Shown piece after piece: positions 1 to 18,681 of a stretch of 64,000 nt of DNA (the stretch's first letter is position 1; each line of letters begins with the position of its first letter). The stretch spans positions 2,264,501-2,328,500 of the forward strand of contig NZ_CP045429.1 in NCBI RefSeq assembly GCF_005886805.2. Reading direction: 5' to 3'. Below the pieces are notes generated by a model. The model was not told where the DNA came from, did no database searches, and saw only the letters and a program-made list of their open reading frames with translations. Position numbers and translations under genes: made by a program. Origin of the DNA: Pseudoalteromonas rubra (lineage in GTDB: Bacteria > Pseudomonadota > Gammaproteobacteria > Enterobacterales > Alteromonadaceae).

Positions 1-1563
1 AAAGTTTAGTACCCAACGAGTCCATTGATAATCGAGTTGTTCAATCTGAAGTCTGACCCAATTTACCAACGCCAGATTGGAATAAGTCATCAAACTCAGT
101 CCAAGATTGTCCTTAAATTCATCTTCCAGCTCTGTTAATTCAGATAAAGACCCGATCAGCCTGTCCGGCGCTACCCAAGCGGTGGGATCCAGACGATACC
201 AACCTTGCTGAGGAACATAATACTCAACCCAGGCATGCGCGTCGTATTGATAAACACTGTAATATCCGCGCTCTTCATTATATTCTCCGCCAAGATACCC
301 TGAAACAAGTCGGGCAGGGATGCCAGCTGCGCGTAACATAAAGGCAGCACTAGCAGCATAATGACCACAAAATCCTTCACGGGTCTCAGTTAAGAAGGTG
401 TCAATACTATCTCGGTCACTTATCCTTGCGGGTTTAAGTGAGTAACGAAATCTATGTTCGATAAAATACTGTTTCATCTGCTCTATAAAGTCCGCAGTAT
501 TGTCAGTCGCGTTATCCCATCGTATTGCCATTGCCGTGGCCAGCGGATTGATTTCTTCAGGTAAAGCGGTGTTGAGTCGGTACTGCCAGTTGACCATACC
601 TGCCCCTGTAACATGAATAGGCGTCACCTGATATTCCATACTACTACTCAGGTTGTTTTGCATAAACAAAGTACCAAAGTGATTGGTATTCACACCCCGT
701 GTAACTGACTTAGCCTGACCAAGGTTGTATAACCAGGTTTTTCCTGATGGCCTTGCGATGATTGTGTAGCTTTCACCTACCGCACGATATGGTGCTTGCA
801 AGGGAACGTCATGATGTGCTGAAATCCGCCAACGTTTACCGTCAAACTTGTCATGGACTAAGGTCCGCCAGTAAAAAGGCGGTTTCATCTGAGCGTTGTC
901 AGGAAGAATTGCCCTGAATACCAATTCGTCTGAGCGAGATAACTCTGATATTTCAAACGGGTCTATGTCCTCAGAGAGCCCTGTTTGCGTTTTCTTCGCG
1001 CCGGGGAGCTGCCAAAACGGAGAAACTTTCGGCAGAAGCACAACCATGATTGCGGCCAGAGGGAGTGCTAATAACAGGTGCTTTGTCGCTTGTCTGATTG
1101 CGCTGTGTAATTCAATTTCATGTTCAATCCAGAGCATTTGCGCCAGATTGATCACCAGAAGTGCAAGCACGAATAGTAAAGAAAGAACATTCTGAGAGAA
1201 GATAAAAAAGCAAGGATAAACAAAAAAGTTGAGCAGCTGCACTGACATGGCTTGTTTTTTTGTTTTTGCCTGAATGGTTTTTAGTGCACATGCCCCTAAT
1301 AATAATGAAACGAACATTTCCACCAGATTAGAAAAACCGATTGCGACAAATACCACCAGAATAATGGTAAAAGCCAATAGATTTATCATCTTTTCGGATG
1401 GCCCTTTAACCAAGTTCTTGTAAATAGCGAGCTTAAACAGCACTATTAGCAACATGGCACAGGTAAACACCAGGCCAAAACTGTTGAAAAGCAAGGTACT
1501 GACTAAACCATAGAGCAGTGTTGTCATTAAGGTTTGGGAGCTTATGAGTTTGTCAGAAGTCAC
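1..1563 (-). CDS. TgpA-type membrane transglutaminase (partial, C-terminus off window)
   Basis: Membrane-anchored transglutaminase-like protein of the DUF3488/TgpA family; 521 residues are inside the window and the 3' end lies beyond base 1. The N-terminal third is a set of hydrophobic helices, followed by a periplasmic transglutaminase core with the expected triad: Cys399 in GFCGHYAAS, His443 in YDAHAWVEYY and Asp459 in YRLDPTAW. The start chosen is GTG at 1563 because GGAGG lies about 7 bases upstream, inside the end of the DUF58 gene; the ATG at 1527 has no ribosome site. It overlaps the DUF58 gene by 11 bases, so translation is coupled. TgpA, MoxR and DUF58 genes commonly travel together; the physiological substrate is not known. 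Confidence 0.9.
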   Translation of the reverse strand, partial: MTSDKLISSQTLMTTLLYGLVSTLLFNSFGLVFTCAMLLIVLFKLAIYKNLVKGPSEKMINLLAFTIILVVFVAIGFSNLVEMFVSLLLGACALKTIQAKTKKQAMSVQLLNFFVYPCFFIFSQNVLSLLFVLALLVINLAQMLWIEHEIELHSAIRQATKHLLLALPLAAIMVVLLPKVSPFWQLPGAKKTQTGLSEDIDPFEISELSRSDELVFRAILPDNAQMKPPFYWRTLVHDKFDGKRWRISAHHDVPLQAPYRAVGESYTIIARPSGKTWLYNLGQAKSVTRGVNTNHFGTLFMQNNLSSSMEYQVTPIHVTGAGMVNWQYRLNTALPEEINPLATAMAIRWDNATDNTADFIEQMKQYFIEHRFRYSLKPARISDRDSIDTFLTETREGFCGHYAASAAFMLRAAGIPARLVSGYLGGEYNEERGYYSVYQYDAHAWVEYYVPQQGWYRLDPTAWVAPDRLIGSLSELTELEDEFKDNLGLSLMTYSNLALVNWVRLQIEQLDYQWTRWVLNF

Positions 1564-13237: not shown

Positions 13238-15712
13238 TTATAAATTCTCTTTAAACAACTTATAGATACGACGATATTCGTCCAGCCAGCTCGAAGGCTG
13301 CACAAAGCCATGCGGTTCTACCGGATAAATTGCCGTTTCATAGTTTTCTTTCTCCAGTTCAATCAATCTTTGTACCAACCGAACGACATCCTGGAAAAAC
13401 ACATTGTCATCAATCATGGGAGCATTGATCAACATAGGCTTGTTGAGGCCTTCAGCAAAGTAAATTGGTGAGCTACGGCGATAAGCAATAGGATCATCCA
13501 CCGGACGATTCAGAATATTAGACGTGTAAGGGTCATTATAGTAAGCCCAATCTGTGACCGGTCTAAGCGCTGCCCCAGCCTGGAATAATTCAGGCTGAGT
13601 GAACAAAGCCATAAAGGTCATAAATCCACCATACGATCCGCCATAGGTGCCGACTGCGCCCTTATCAACATTGACGTTCTCAACCATCCAGTTTACGCCA
13701 TCAGCCAAATCTTCGATTTCTGGCTTACCCATATGACGATAGATAGCCGTACGCCAGTCTCGTCCGTATCCCTTTGATGCCCGGTAGTCCATGTCCATTA
13801 CCACATACCCTTCGCTGGCAAGTAAAGAGTGAAACATAAACTCGCGGAAGTACACTGACCAGCCGAGGTGAGAGTTTTGCAAATACCCAGCGCCATGGTT
13901 GAAAATCACTGCTTTACGGGTATTGCCTTGTTCTCCTTCCTGATAATCTGCAGGATAGTAAACTTTCGCATAAATAGGTTGGTCGGTATGGCTAGATGGT
14001 ACCGCAACGACTTTAGGTGCAATGAGTTTTTTACTTAAAAACGCCTCAGAGACTGTATTGGTAATTTGCTTTATTTCACTTCCAGGTTGAGCATCTGCAA
14101 TAAACAACTCTGGAGGCATGACAATTTTTGAATGCGTCAACAAGAGTTTGCTCTCATCCGGACTCAATACATAATCTGTCATACCATCGAGATTGGTTAA
14201 TGTTTCCAACTCACCAGATTGCAAATTTACACGGTATATTTCGTAAATACCTGGGTGCTTTTTATTCGCTTTAAAATAGATGGCAGCGTTGTCTTTAGTT
14301 AGCGTCAACTCTGAAACTTCGAACTTTCCTGATGTTAATTGGGTCGCTTTTCCATTTAGAGGCTTGGTGTACAAATGGCTGTAACCTGACTCTTCAGACA
14401 GATAGTACAGCGTGTTTTTGTTATTAAGCCAGCCAAAATCGTTGTGTGTATAGTTCACCCAGGCTTCATCATACAAGCGATGCTGAGAGACAAGTTTATT
14501 GTTGCTAAAGTCAACCGTAGCAATCCAACGGTCTTTGTTGTCCCAGGACTCTAGCATCAATGCAACTTCATTTCCCTGCGTATTCCATTGAATGGCTGAT
14601 TGATCCCAACCCCAATCGAGCATCAATGAGATATGACGTGGGGCTTTTTTACTGCTATAGGTTTTACCTTGTGCCTCAGCGTTTTCTCTCCTGACATGTG
14701 CTAACACATCTTCATCAAAACCAGGTAATGTCTCGTATCCCAGTGATTGTTGCTGTTTAGTGTTTAGGTCAATATATACCAGTGTGTGTTCGACCGGTTT
14801 GTTGTCTGCGACACGACTACGAGCCTTAACCGGGTCGATATTACCATCCTGTGTCACATAGTTTGGCATGATATCCTGAGCACTTCGTTCGGGGATGTCT
14901 TTGGTAATGGCTACAATGAGTTTGTCACCTGCCGGAGACAAGCTGCTTTCTAAGATGCGCTGGTCTTTGCCCAGGTAAAAGAGATTGTTATCTAAGGTGC
15001 TATTTTGATCTACTAACGCTTTTTTGCGGCTCTGTGCGTCTTTGGCATTCTTATGCTGTAGTGCCACGTAGCCGATTAATTGATGCTGCTCTTGTGCGAT
15101 ATAACTGGCTGGCTCAGTGACGCCCGGCGGCGCATCCTCGACTATCAATTTAGCCAGCTCTGTTGTCAGGCCAGTGGTAAGATCAATCGCATAAAACGTA
15201 TTGTCCGCAAGATACGCTAGTTGCCCTGAGGTCAAAAACTGAAGTCGCTCGGCTTTTTGGCTTGATCTGGTTAGCTGTGTTACCTGGTTGCTGCTGATAT
15301 CTTTAACGAACACATTTCCTGCAAATACATAAGCCTGAAGCTCACCGTCATGTGAATAAACAGCATTTTCCGAACCTACCTGATGTTTGTCAGATAAGGC
15401 AACCTGTTCAATTCCCTGTCCATCATACTTAAACGTGTCTCTTAGTTTGCTCCCTGATTGTTTTTGTTTAAACAAAACAGATTGGCTATCTGCACTCCAA
15501 AAACCGTCTTCAGGCTTTCTGCCGAGCCAATCTGGGTCTGCCATTGCCTGTTCAAGGGTAATTACATCAGAGCCTGTTGTTTCGGCAGTCGTAGCTACAG
15601 CTGCTGGAAGCGTATTTTGGGAAGCTTGATTGTTATTACTGTTTTGTGTGACCTGACAACCAGCCAAAAATAAAGCGGATGCCACGGCGAGAGAAGTAAG
15701 AGATTGTTTCAT
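13238..15712 (-). CDS. S9 family prolyl-oligopeptidase-like lipoprotein
   Basis: 824-residue lipoprotein peptidase. The signal peptide ends in a lipobox (FLAGC, Cys19). Residues 50-560 form a beta-propeller-like region; the C-terminal alpha/beta-hydrolase has Ser693 (GTYGGSYGGF), Asp769 (MIDDNVFF) and His801 (VEPHGFVQ), the triad order of family S9. It is probably anchored in the outer membrane facing the periplasm and cleaves short peptides, perhaps after proline (dipeptidyl-peptidase type), but specificity cannot be read here. The start ATG has no strong ribosome site. A structured RNA with its own terminator lies about 100 bases upstream on the same strand. Confidence 0.92.
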   Translation of the reverse strand: MKQSLTSLAVASALFLAGCQVTQNSNNNQASQNTLPAAVATTAETTGSDVITLEQAMADPDWLGRKPEDGFWSADSQSVLFKQKQSGSKLRDTFKYDGQGIEQVALSDKHQVGSENAVYSHDGELQAYVFAGNVFVKDISSNQVTQLTRSSQKAERLQFLTSGQLAYLADNTFYAIDLTTGLTTELAKLIVEDAPPGVTEPASYIAQEQHQLIGYVALQHKNAKDAQSRKKALVDQNSTLDNNLFYLGKDQRILESSLSPAGDKLIVAITKDIPERSAQDIMPNYVTQDGNIDPVKARSRVADNKPVEHTLVYIDLNTKQQQSLGYETLPGFDEDVLAHVRRENAEAQGKTYSSKKAPRHISLMLDWGWDQSAIQWNTQGNEVALMLESWDNKDRWIATVDFSNNKLVSQHRLYDEAWVNYTHNDFGWLNNKNTLYYLSEESGYSHLYTKPLNGKATQLTSGKFEVSELTLTKDNAAIYFKANKKHPGIYEIYRVNLQSGELETLTNLDGMTDYVLSPDESKLLLTHSKIVMPPELFIADAQPGSEIKQITNTVSEAFLSKKLIAPKVVAVPSSHTDQPIYAKVYYPADYQEGEQGNTRKAVIFNHGAGYLQNSHLGWSVYFREFMFHSLLASEGYVVMDMDYRASKGYGRDWRTAIYRHMGKPEIEDLADGVNWMVENVNVDKGAVGTYGGSYGGFMTFMALFTQPELFQAGAALRPVTDWAYYNDPYTSNILNRPVDDPIAYRRSSPIYFAEGLNKPMLINAPMIDDNVFFQDVVRLVQRLIELEKENYETAIYPVEPHGFVQPSSWLDEYRRIYKLFKENL

Positions 15713-15813: not shown

Positions 15814-15910
15814 AAAAAAAAGGCCAGTAAAGCTACTGGCCAAATACTCTCTGCGCTCACATAGTCGTTGATGGACAACGAGTATGAAATGAGGCCTATC
15901 CACGCCTCAT
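15814..15910 (-). ncRNA. Candidate small RNA with intrinsic terminator
   Basis: About 97 bases with three nested or tandem secondary structures on the minus strand: a 5' hairpin (ATGAGGC/GCCTCAT, 15889-15910), a domain closed by 15880-15885 pairing with 15844-15849 that encloses a TCGTTG/CAACGA hairpin (15865-15881), and a terminator stem GGCCAGTA/TACTGGCC (15822-15841, loop of four) followed by eight T residues. No plausible protein is coded here. An RpoE-like promoter lies just upstream. This is the layout of Hfq-type small RNAs. An alternative is a transcription attenuator in the leader of the S9 peptidase gene, whose ATG is 102 bases downstream. Confidence 0.55.
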
Positions 15911-15914
15911 AAAA

Positions 15915-15943
15915 GTAGACCTGCGAGTGATAGAATAAGTTCC
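15915..15943 (-). promoter_or_regulatory. RpoE (sigma-E)-like promoter
   Basis: GGAACTT (15943-15937) and TCTAC (15919-15915) are separated by 17 bases. The sigma-E consensus is GGAACTT, about 16 bases, TCTRA; the -35 element is exact and the -10 element differs at its end. The expected start, 6-7 bases further on, falls at the first base of the 5' hairpin of the small-RNA candidate. Confidence 0.4.
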
Positions 15944-16036: not shown

Positions 16037-16975
16037 TTACAGTGTAACCAGACCATCCAAAATCAGTAACAACATAACGCCACTGACGATAAACCAAAGT
16101 ACAGATGCCATAGCAAAAGGACGCCAGCCACTTTGGCGTAACATTGCCATCGAAACACCGCTGCCTATCAGAAATAAGCTCGCAACCAATACTGACTTGG
16201 CACCACTATAAAGTACAGACCACACAGGCTGGTAATCTGGCAGCCAGGTGTTAATCATAGCCGCAGCAACAAAGCCGATGATGAACAAAGGAATACTGGC
16301 TTTTTCAGAAGAGCGCCAGAACACACCTGCCATAGCAGCATACGGCACAATCCACATCGCCCGGGTAAGTTTAATCGTAGTTGCCATCGTCAGAGCAACA
16401 GGCCCATACACCGAGGCCGCAGCAACAACACTGCTGGTGTCATGAATCGCCAGCGCACTCCATAAAGCAAACTGACTCTCCGAGAGCGAAAAATAATGTC
16501 CGAGCCAAGGAAAAACAAGCAAGCCAAGCGCATTCAAAGCGAAAATTACACTGAGTGAAATAGCGATTTCGTCCTGTCTGGCCTTGATCACCGGCGCCAT
16601 TGCCGCAATCGCACTGCCACCACAAATTGCTGTGCCAAATGAGATCAAAGTCCCCGTGTTGCGATTAAGGCGAAACACTTGGGTGAGAATTTCACCCAGG
16701 CCTATCGTTGCCGTAATACTGACGATGGTTAACACCAGGGAGCTACGCCCAACGGCCAGTACTTCTTCGATATTGACGTTAAAACCCAATCCAATAACGG
16801 CCAGTTTTAATAACCATTTTGATGCGTTGTTGGATAAATCCGGTAAGGGGTTACCTAATACAAGTGCAAATCCAAGACCGATGAACAGTGCTGAAGACGC
16901 GCTGGCAAAAGGTGATAACGCGAATAAGAATGCTAATAAAAATAAAGCTTTATGGAAGCCTGGTCGTTCTAACAA
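16037..16975 (-). CDS. YeiH/UPF0324 family putative sulfate exporter
   Basis: 312-residue integral membrane protein with about ten hydrophobic helices. Family landmarks are GFALVLGNP near residue 35, VIGLGFNV, ISFGTAICGGSAIAAMAPVI (about 109-128) and ALAIHDTSSVVAAA (about 168-181). The family is annotated as putative sulfate exporters, but the substrate is not firmly proven. The usable start is TTG 16975; no ATG occurs upstream before an in-frame stop, and the ribosome site is poor. It lies 72 bases after purK on the same strand, with a hairpin between. Confidence 0.85.
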   Translation of the reverse strand: MLERPGFHKALFLLAFLFALSPFASASSALFIGLGFALVLGNPLPDLSNNASKWLLKLAVIGLGFNVNIEEVLAVGRSSLVLTIVSITATIGLGEILTQVFRLNRNTGTLISFGTAICGGSAIAAMAPVIKARQDEIAISLSVIFALNALGLLVFPWLGHYFSLSESQFALWSALAIHDTSSVVAAASVYGPVALTMATTIKLTRAMWIVPYAAMAGVFWRSSEKASIPLFIIGFVAAAMINTWLPDYQPVWSVLYSGAKSVLVASLFLIGSGVSMAMLRQSGWRPFAMASVLWFIVSGVMLLLILDGLVTL

Positions 16976-17047: not shown

Positions 17048-18196
17048 CTAGTTGAGAATTAGAGCATGGCTAGTCTCGGCTATACCAGGATAAGCCGCTT
17101 CAGGGAGTATCTCAGCCAGATCAGCAAGCCGCTCACCCAACTCGTGTAAGCTGTTCGCTGAGACGTTAATATGCCCCATTTTTCTTCCGGGTTTGGCCGT
17201 TTTACCATACCAATGGCTGGTCACACCGAGCGTCTGCAATACGTTAGTTGGAATGTTTTCCTGTCCCAATACATTGATCATGGCAGTAGGCCTGATAAGA
17301 CTGGTATCACCAATGGGCAATCCAGCGATAGCGCGAATATGGTTTTCAAATTGGCTAACGTGACACCCTTGTTGTGTCCAGTGACCTGAATTGTGCACAC
17401 GTGGTGCAATTTCATTAACCAATAACGTGCCATCAACATCAAAAAACTCAATTGCCAGCACGCCAACATAATCAAGTTCGCTGGCTACCGCTGAGAATGC
17501 CGATTCAGCCTGAGCTTGAATTGCAGACTTCTCTTTTCCTGCGATAGATAATGTTAGCACGCCATTAGTGTGCTGATTTTCTGTCAACGGATAGATACGA
17601 CATTGGCCATTACGATCTCGCACACCAATAATTGACACTTCACGGTCGAATGGGATCATTTGCTCTGCAATAATGGCATGAGGAACCGCTTCGGTACCGG
17701 CAGCCAAAAACTCAGACATTTCCTGCCAGATAGCCTCAATTTCATCGTCATGCTTCACGCGCCATTGACCCTTGCCGTCATAGCCGGCCTGGCATGTTTT
17801 AACGACAAGCGGCTTACCCAGTTTTTCAACTGCTGTCAGAAAATGTGCTTTTTCGGTGATCAATGCATATGGAGCACAGGCCACCTGCGCTTTTTCTAGC
17901 AAGGCTTTTTCTTTAGCCCGATCACCACCGGTCAAAATGGCTTCAGCTCCTGGATAAAACTTACCCGTTTGCTGACATACCGCCAAAACGTCCGCCGGAA
18001 TATGTTCAAACTCTGCAGTAATAGCATCGACGTCCGCTATCGCTTGGTCAAGTGTTGCACTGTGCGCTTCAAACGTTACCGGGTTAATGATTTGCTGACT
18101 GGAAACATCGTATGCAGAAACCTGAATATCTAAGTGAGTGGCAGACAAGCTCATCATACGAGCTAACTGGCCTGCACCTAAAACTAATACTTTCAT
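17048..18196 (-). CDS. purK: 5-(carboxyamino)imidazole ribonucleotide synthase
   Basis: 382-residue ATP-grasp enzyme that carboxylates aminoimidazole ribonucleotide to N5-CAIR in purine synthesis. It opens with VLVLGAGQLARMM, has the ATP-grasp lysine in KPLVVKTCQAGYDGKGQW and the metal and substrate motifs in FFDVDGTLLVNEIAPRVHNSGHWT. It starts 2 bases after purE, as in most purEK operons. It is slightly longer than the E. coli enzyme (355), with no sign of disruption. Confidence 0.96.
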   Translation of the reverse strand: MKVLVLGAGQLARMMSLSATHLDIQVSAYDVSSQQIINPVTFEAHSATLDQAIADVDAITAEFEHIPADVLAVCQQTGKFYPGAEAILTGGDRAKEKALLEKAQVACAPYALITEKAHFLTAVEKLGKPLVVKTCQAGYDGKGQWRVKHDDEIEAIWQEMSEFLAAGTEAVPHAIIAEQMIPFDREVSIIGVRDRNGQCRIYPLTENQHTNGVLTLSIAGKEKSAIQAQAESAFSAVASELDYVGVLAIEFFDVDGTLLVNEIAPRVHNSGHWTQQGCHVSQFENHIRAIAGLPIGDTSLIRPTAMINVLGQENIPTNVLQTLGVTSHWYGKTAKPGRKMGHINVSANSLHELGERLADLAEILPEAAYPGIAETSHALILN

Positions 18197-18198
18197 TA

Positions 18199-18681
18199 CT
18201 ACTCTGCTGGGTTAGGGTTAGCCAGAATGGTTTCAGTTTGTGCCTTACGGAACGCTTCTACCTTGTCGAAAATCTCTGGTTGTTGACAACCCAATATCTG
18301 CGCAGCGAGCAAGCCAGCATTTGCCGCGCCAGCATCACCTATAGCAAGCGTGCCAACAGCTACGCCTTTAGGCATTTGGCAGATAGACAGCAATGAATCA
18401 ACACCATTAAGCGTTTTAGATTTCACAGGCACACCTAGTACTGGCAGGCTGGTAAATGCGGCAGCCATTCCAGGCAAATGTGCAGCTCCACCGGCGCCAG
18501 CAATAATAACTTTAATGCCTCGCTCTGCCGCTGAGGAAGCATAGTCAGCTAACAACTGTGGTGTACGGTGCGCAGAAACAACTTTTGTTTCGTATTCAAT
18601 ACCGAACTTATCCAGCATATCTGCTGCATGTTGCATTGTAGGCCAATCGGACTTGGAGCCCATAATGATGCCAACCGTCAT
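18199..18681 (-). CDS. purE: N5-CAIR mutase
   Basis: 160-residue class I PurE, which converts N5-CAIR to CAIR. The signature [13 protein letters not shown] (residues 4-16), the SAHRTP loop and [12 protein letters not shown] are all intact, and the length is normal. It is the first gene of a purEK operon. I looked for a PurR operator upstream and did not find a convincing one. Confidence 0.97.

Follow-up and report, generated by a model that had tools for sequence, protein, structure and literature searches.

What is the structured RNA that lies between a YeiH-type transporter gene and an S9 peptidase gene in Pseudoalteromonas rubra, i.e., is it a gene of its own, what would transcribe it, and on which mRNAs would it act? 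The RNA is encoded on the minus strand of a stretch of 64,000 nucleotides (nt) of contig NZ_CP045429.1 (assembly GCF_005886805.2, positions 2,264,501 to 2,328,500), hereafter the window, and an earlier note, made from the letters alone, had proposed it as a small RNA with a promoter of the sigma-E (RpoE) type. The observation is confirmed as real and well beyond chance: in comparisons among relatives, a body running from T15909 to the U-tail is conserved, whereas its flanks and the promoter spacer are not. That this is an RNA gene, representing a new family of a known kind, is well supported and highly probable from these comparisons. Its proposed role as a repressor of TonB-dependent receptors is moderately supported.

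The RNA gene and its fold

The features of the RNA and its promoter are as follows.

15814..15909, minus strand: gene of a small RNA, with a predicted length of about 96 nt and predicted ends (fold, conservation, covariance model)
15890..15909, minus strand: 5′ hairpin, 6 pairs, with invariant GGAT in the loop (fold, alignment)
15865..15881, minus strand: inner hairpin, 6 pairs, loop UCCAU (fold; not recognised in the divergent homologues)
15842..15865, minus strand: core, i.e., RNA bases 45-68, mostly unpaired, the proposed pairing region (conservation, complementarity to receptor mRNA starts)
15857-15849, minus strand: AGCGCAGAG inside the core (sequence)
15814..15841, minus strand: intrinsic terminator, 8-pair stem at 15841-15822 and T run at 15821-15814, giving eight U (terminator scan)
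15915..15920, minus strand: −10 element GTCTAC (sequence, alignment)
15937..15943, minus strand: −35 element GGAACTT (sequence; GAAC[CT] kept in relatives)

The RNA from 15909 to 15813 folds at −36.1 kcal/mol, compared with −22.3 ± 3.0 kcal/mol for dinucleotide shuffles (z −4.6; 1 of 200 shuffles was equally stable), and the bases of the minus-strand structure and its terminator are as the earlier note had given them. The terminator scan likewise recovered the 8-pair stem followed by eight T. The 5′ hairpin, which had been described with 7 pairs, has 6 by our count. As for the closed domain with an inner hairpin, the 6-pair inner hairpin stands, whereas the closing helix is weak, its six pairs being three A-U, two G-U and one C-G, and is missing from the centroid structure. 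Loop-loop kissing of UGGA with UCCA was considered and rejected, because 95.5% of cells pair but the changes are one-sided only, showing no covariation.

An Rfam scan of the window returned no family at its gathering score, in agreement with the claim that no known family could be recognised. The matches up to E 10 lie far under gathering, i.e., sroB at 27.7 of 44 bits, RyhB at 23.4 of 55, RprA at 22.4 of 70 and MicA at 19.5 of 41. RybB and VrrA have no line among these matches, a result that depends on the presence of their models in the library, which was not checked.

Conservation and distribution

When the flanks are aligned as well, conservation of the body across clades sets in exactly at T15909, i.e., the base at which the 5′ hairpin had been said to begin and transcription to start; in the six closest copies (L001-L006), large parts of the flanks agree too. 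Among 26 aligned sequences, the core has one variable column only, GGAT in the first loop does not vary, and the second loop hardly does. The median DNA identity to the window copy is 94.8% for the RNA body (33 loci), compared with 64.7% for the S9 coding DNA, taken up to 900 bases (32 loci).

A DNA search of 99 genomes found the element in 26 (that of P. rubra included), all among the 60 genomes of its own genus. Of 147 genomes, 37 carry the 21-mer GAGCGCAGAGAGTATTTGGCC (37 of 89 within the genus, 0 of 58 outside), always with zero mismatches though two were allowed; a second place in G035, with two mismatches, has no terminator. The exact 20-base core occurs in 33 contigs of a collection of 84,980 species, all of them Pseudoalteromonas, including P. 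rubra, P. luteoviolacea, P. piscicida, P. flavipulchra, P. phenolica, P. aurantia and P. peptidolytica. The covariance-model search that had been proposed as a check recognised 47 of 108 Pseudoalteromonas genomes at 98-122 bits, with the next match at 34 bits.

The RNA was not recognised outside Pseudoalteromonas by the searches made. A pattern search of 394 genomes of the order gave 28 loci outside the genus, none of which has both the T-run and the promoter; one locus inside the genus, L124, shows the two together by chance, within apparent coding sequence, and was rejected. Five pattern-search rows had no locus, three of which (G439, G221 C12 and G079) show no terminator, and two (G355 and G221 C3) lie outside the examined set. 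The pattern would miss copies of the window type; for these, the search covered the 58 genomes from other genera and, by exact core, the species collection.

Covariation within the close group is slight because the RNA body varies so little: two pairs are changed on both sides, in five cells, and the 5′ hairpin has one compensatory pair change, from G-C to A-U, in L026.

Divergent homologues

Divergent versions of the RNA were recognised in 11 further genomes via the pattern search and weak model matches, i.e., those below 35 bits: G002, G011 (C29:699016), G016, G034, G040 (C1:1026068), G053 (C12:197321), G101 (C31), G105 (C1:2265235), G108, G112 and G162. They share a plan consisting of a 5′ hairpin of other sequence, a terminator and, between the two, an unpaired AGYGCAGAG with UAUU or UUUU after it. 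AGYGCAGAG is kept in the 11 homologues, and a GAAC[CT]...TC promoter in 8 of them. The 7 counted pairs of the terminator stem hold in 112 of 112 cells from 16 distinct sequences, and changes on both sides were found in 13 cells at three pairs, compared with 4.0 cells in shuffles (0 of 500 shuffles reach 13). Since the unpaired motif is kept in its letters and the flanking hairpins in their shape, the pattern is, on sequence grounds, that of a pairing RNA.

The rows examined below 35 bits were these 11 divergent copies, 14 matches that were read and 20 that were checked for the motif. The 14 look like terminators just after genes (G155 C22, G009 C1, G160 C20, G005 C16, G045 C46, G158 C1, G123 C1:1831829, G037, two in G007, G008, G051, G010 and G022), and the 20 are without the motif; all were rejected.

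As a separate observation, two places after genes in P. phenolica genomes share an AGA(G/A)AGUAU end and a GGCC terminator, without the promoter. L112 (G009:C1:62432-62523) and L118 (G045:C46:133673-133785) are post-gene terminators with the RNA's AGAGAGTATCT / AGAAAGTATTC...GGCCAG end and without a sigma-E promoter; these ends may belong to an RNA with a similar core derived from a 3′ untranslated region (UTR).

A sigma-E-type promoter

The GGAACTT-17-TCTAC promoter of the earlier note is read directly at 15943-15915, with GGAACTT at 15943-15937, a 17-nt spacer, TCTAC at 15919-15915, five bases and the predicted start T15909. Of 35 distinct upstream strings (from 59 locus records, many of the same genomes), 34 gave a script match to GAAC[CT], the sole failure being a locus cut off within the RNA (L066). 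The promoter of L055, which the script missed as the RNA there begins CGAGGC, was seen by eye, so that 35 distinct complete upstream sequences keep the promoter. The spacing from hexamer to GTC is 15 or 16 nt, and it is always 11 nt, counting from the G of GTC, to the RNA start (34 of 34 matched strings).

The rpoE gene is controlled by its own product, RpoE. In 12 of 12 genomes of the genus, rpoE has the same promoter form as the RNA, i.e., GAACTTTT...GTC (in most cases GTCAGA), at about 90-130 bases ahead of the rpoE match. The string GTCAGAGTA is common to the rpoE promoter and to the RNA promoters of some relatives. The kept promoter, its likeness in form to that of rpoE, the conserved 5′ and 3′ ends, and the homologues in which another 5′ hairpin stands beside an unchanged unpaired motif strongly support the proposal of a small RNA with a sigma-E-type promoter, and the features of the sigma-E class are present at the level of sequence, i.e., the promoter at the RNA start and a short RNA with an intrinsic terminator and U-tail. 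We infer that RpoE drives transcription of the RNA.

Ahead of the rpoE promoter, an A-rich tract, TATTTTAAAAAAAATAT...AAAAAAACA, is conserved in most of the 12 genomes (L083-L094) and is possibly an upstream element.

Gene neighbourhood and readings within a longer transcript

The neighbouring genes of the window are as follows.

13238..15712, minus strand: S9 peptidase gene, the downstream neighbour, with a lipoprotein-like start as judged by eye (reading frame)
16037..16975, minus strand: YeiH-type transporter gene, the upstream neighbour, named as in the earlier note
17048..18196, minus strand: purK-like gene, part of the conserved upstream context
18199-18681, minus strand: purE-like gene, part of the conserved upstream context

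The last two genes we take to be purK-like and purE-like from the look of their sequences. The order of the locus is purK-(yeiH)-RNA-S9, and S9 lies downstream on the same strand, 85-222 nt on, in 32 of 33 named loci, the remaining locus coming to its end; S9 also follows 10 of the 11 divergent copies. This arrangement would suit a 5′ leader or attenuator of S9, in which the sigma-E promoter starts transcription and the terminator gates reading into S9, an alternative that the earlier note had set aside. However, the S9 gene is present in 14 of 14 tested genomes of the genus without a strong model match, and in 10 of these it has neither the motif in the 900 nt upstream nor a model match. As for the other four, G101, G105 and G108 carry a divergent copy upstream of S9, and G034 carries its copy elsewhere, with no S9 within 1.5 kilobases of the RNA and S9 on another contig. 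The constant linkage to S9 that is expected of a cis leader is therefore not seen. In addition, the RNA body is far more conserved than S9, by the median identities given above, and the gap from the terminator to the S9 start is variable in length. Because S9 is found alone in 10 of 14 genomes, and the RNA apart from S9 in one, the leader reading is disfavoured and we consider it improbable.

The YeiH-type gene lies directly upstream of the RNA in 26 of 34 loci (the window included), is missing in 6, and the locus is cut in 2; this gene, between purK and the RNA, thus comes and goes at that spot. Its strand and the gene order are compatible with an RNA derived from the 3′ UTR of yeiH, or with a part of a purEK-yeiH transcript, but the RNA has its own conserved promoter at a fixed distance from a conserved 5′ end and is kept in the 6 loci from which yeiH is missing, and such an origin is very improbable.

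A short coding sequence, instead of a non-coding RNA, is a still more remote explanation. One frame is open across the window copy, but several relatives have TAA in that frame (CATAATCG), the length of the terminator loop varies and breaks the frame, the TCC/TTC, ATC/GTC and AAC/AGC changes alter residues, and the divergent copies are two bases short in the core. A coding role was thus rejected, given the in-frame TAA, the frame breaks and the residue-changing substitutions.

Complementarity to the starts of receptor mRNAs

The gene that prompted the idea of receptor targets is L306, a distant receptor in G009 with thirteen contiguous complementary bases straight after ATGAA. It was noted beforehand as a prediction that three other genomes (G009, G004 and G014) should show a signal in the start region, and the test set held 110 of 155 Plug matches, with L306 excluded. 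At these 110 receptor starts, the mean duplex z is −0.45 ± 0.12 at −30..+40, compared with −0.09 to +0.24 in five control windows. Contiguous complements of at least 8, at least 9 and at least 10 bases number 9, 4 and 2, compared with 2.5, 0.71 and 0.15 expected, and these counts are reached by 1, 0 and 1 of 100 shuffled cores.

Leu-Ser-Ala-Leu is favoured in signal peptides, so the count was repeated against synonymous-codon shuffles, which hold the amino acids and codon pools fixed. Complements of at least 7, 8, 9 and 10 bases then number 18, 7, 4 and 2, compared with 7.9, 2.1, 0.57 and 0.16, and are reached by 0, 1, 0 and 4 of 300 shuffles, whereas the duplex energy is reached by 11 of 300. 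With dinucleotide-shuffled cores, such an excess appears at 7, 8 and 9 in 1, 0 and 0 of 60.

TonB-dependent receptor matches number 43 to 61 per genome in four genomes. Among 140 receptors from the four, seven-mers are in excess for RNA bases 45-68 (34 vs. 13.6; 0 of 200 synonymous shuffles), and no such excess is seen for the other parts of the RNA, i.e., bases 1-20 (7 vs. 4.2), 21-44 (0 vs. 3.6) and 69-90 (14 vs. 11.1). The excess persists when ortholog families are weighted once, being reached by 0, 3 and 4 of 200 shuffles at a threshold of at least 7, 8 and 9, respectively. It is uneven among the genomes, being strongest in G014, moderate in G004 and G009, and absent in P. rubra itself by the 7-mer count. 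Some families keep the site across clades, e.g., the MQFSR receptors in three of the four genomes: the MQFSR/MQYSR-type receptors L260, L336 and L402, from three genomes of different clades, have AATTCTCTCG or AATACTCTCG right after the start codon. The suggestion that the RNA acts on outer-membrane protein mRNAs gains indirect and purely statistical support for TonB-dependent receptors in three genomes, but not from the 7-mers of its own genome.

The P. rubra set consisted of 38 starts, 30 of them from the 46 Plug matches and 8 from the 11 barrel matches; at these starts the core gives a mean z of −0.47 ± 0.15 at −30..+40, compared with −0.31 to +0.25 in five other windows. At one receptor start, L269, the ribosome site holds TTACTCTCTGGAAG; five close relatives keep ACTCTCTG, but most of this region is common to them.

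Two further complementary sites of this genome are recorded as observations. L209 (G000:C1:1652901) is CTCTGCGCTCAC, a 12-base perfect complement of the core between convergent genes, about 115 bases after a frame of 306 amino acids. L234 (G000:C1:4454775) encodes a secreted protein, by its look protease-like with a PKD-like end, and has CTCTGCGCTC at codons 7-10.

Proposed function and its weighing

As the probable reading, we propose that sigma-E drives this small RNA and that it represses TonB-dependent receptors by pairing through its core. Envelope stress would free RpoE, which would start transcription at about 15909, and the RNA would end at the intrinsic terminator, with its U-tail at 15814. 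Between the 5′ fold and the terminator lies the unpaired core, i.e., bases 45-68 with the central motif AGYGCAGAG...UAUU, which would pair with the first codons or the ribosome-binding region of TonB-dependent receptor mRNAs, whose signal-peptide codons (e.g., those of Leu-Ser-Ala-Leu) are often complementary to it. Pairing would block translation and so lower the load of large outer-membrane barrels under stress. We infer the pairing action, its repressive outcome and help by Hfq; Hfq dependence, expression and induction by stress are suggested by analogy with known small RNAs.

Several results weigh against this proposal. At the level of the family, 50 of 108 genomes of the genus are without a recognised copy, 3 of the 11 divergent homologues are without a −35 match, and the number of terminator pairs with two-sided changes, three, is not above shuffles (207 of 500 reach three). 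In the receptor test, the start codons were chosen by our own rule, and positions further downstream are not silent: the window +60..130 has 2 genes with at least 9 bases, compared with 0.30 expected (3 of 100 shuffles), codons 30-54 retain a small residual (at least 9: 2 vs. 0.12), and codons 60-84 have 5 with at least 7, compared with 2.7 (5 of 60 shuffles). G014 gives most of the hits, and without it 8 of 200 shuffles reach the count. In P. rubra itself, the 7-mer excess is absent (3 vs. 2.35 expected; 73 of 200 shuffles reach it), one control window gives −0.31 ± 0.14, and RNA bases 21-44 give −0.57 at the starts and −0.17 to −0.55 elsewhere. This genome has 72 copies of CTCTGCGCT, the exact antisense of the motif, and they are not concentrated at gene starts. 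Among the 70 of these sites that were examined (the RNA itself and one other site were left out), 27 are near some start codon, and one, in a secreted peptidase, is convincing by eye.

An appreciable though clearly lesser chance is that the RNA is a sigma-E small RNA whose main targets are other mRNAs, or which titrates a protein, with the complementarity to receptors being incidental or minor. The weak receptor signal of its own genome is in keeping with this, and the target examination covered receptors and a few barrels only. The invariant letters of the GGAT loop, together with the near-invariant second loop, suggest further contacts. CsrA sites are GGA motifs in hairpin loops, which the GGA of the 5′ hairpin resembles, but a CsrA sponge would be expected to carry more than one such loop. 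What also speaks for receptors over such other partners is that the core-specific excess at receptor starts survives both the synonymous and the shuffled-core controls.

We tentatively suggest that one stress RNA could hold down a whole paralogous class of nutrient receptors, its core being antisense to codons common in their signal peptides and the synonymous codons of individual receptors being tuned to raise or avoid pairing, although this extension is somewhat doubtful. If true, the signal-peptide codons would be a regulatory barcode common to these receptors, which one RNA would read, and envelope stress would be coupled directly to the nutrient uptake of marine bacteria. If the proposed action on receptors holds, it would explain how the synthesis of dozens of large barrels could be cut at once, and would give a natural test of whether signal-peptide codons evolve under selection by a small RNA. 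The RNA itself has a clear promoter and a conserved core, and its proposed target class is open to testing.

Comparison with known systems

No sigma-E small RNA of Pseudoalteromonas was recognised in the open-licence literature among the matches listed. The terminator stem of MicA is of the GGCC type, as is that of the window RNA. According to the available parts of the sources, a small-RNA arm of the sigma-E response is known from E. coli, Vibrio and Fusobacterium (PMC4618604, PMC8359247, PMC11005410), and MicA of E. coli (RF00078) is an RNA of about 70 nt under sigma-E control, with two stem-loops and a short unpaired stretch between them, which acts with Hfq on outer-membrane protein mRNAs (PMC4618604). 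As far as MicA is described there, the window RNA resembles it in its sigma-E-type promoter, in its two-hairpin plan with an unpaired stretch and in its proposed outer-membrane targets. It differs in scoring 19.5 of 41 bits against the MicA model and in a candidate pairing region that is internal, beside the terminator; moreover, MicA lies at luxS-gshA, whereas the window RNA lies at purK-(yeiH)-RNA-S9. Scores under gathering also leave the RNA outside RyhB, sroB and RprA. As for RybB and VrrA/MicV, whose sequences were not directly compared, the difference is that the predicted targets here are TonB-dependent receptors.

FoxI and FoxJ of Fusobacterium nucleatum are described, in the part of the source available, as sigma-E small RNAs whose promoters share motifs with that of rpoE, and FoxJ sits in front of a gene and was first annotated as its 5′ UTR (PMC11005410). 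The window RNA is similar in its rpoE-like promoter and, with respect to FoxJ, in its position ahead of a gene; the Fusobacterium RNAs differ, as described there, in a C-rich seed, a length of about 156 nt (FoxJ) and the porin FomA as target. ChvR of Caulobacter is reported, in the available text, to repress a TonB-dependent receptor by pairing, with one site just upstream of the start (PMC6237742). ChvR differs, by the same text, in its control by ChvI-ChvG, its sole target and its independence from Hfq, whereas many receptors and a sigma-E promoter are proposed here. From the same or a related genus, Pf1-Pf3 of Pseudoalteromonas fuliginea and Aln1a-c of Alteromonas are CsrA-binding small RNAs, for which no sigma-E promoter is described in the available parts of the papers (PMC11882849, PMC5864184, PMC9927453). 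The simplest account by analogy is that the window RNA would belong to the known small-RNA arm of the sigma-E response, here aimed at TonB-dependent receptors.
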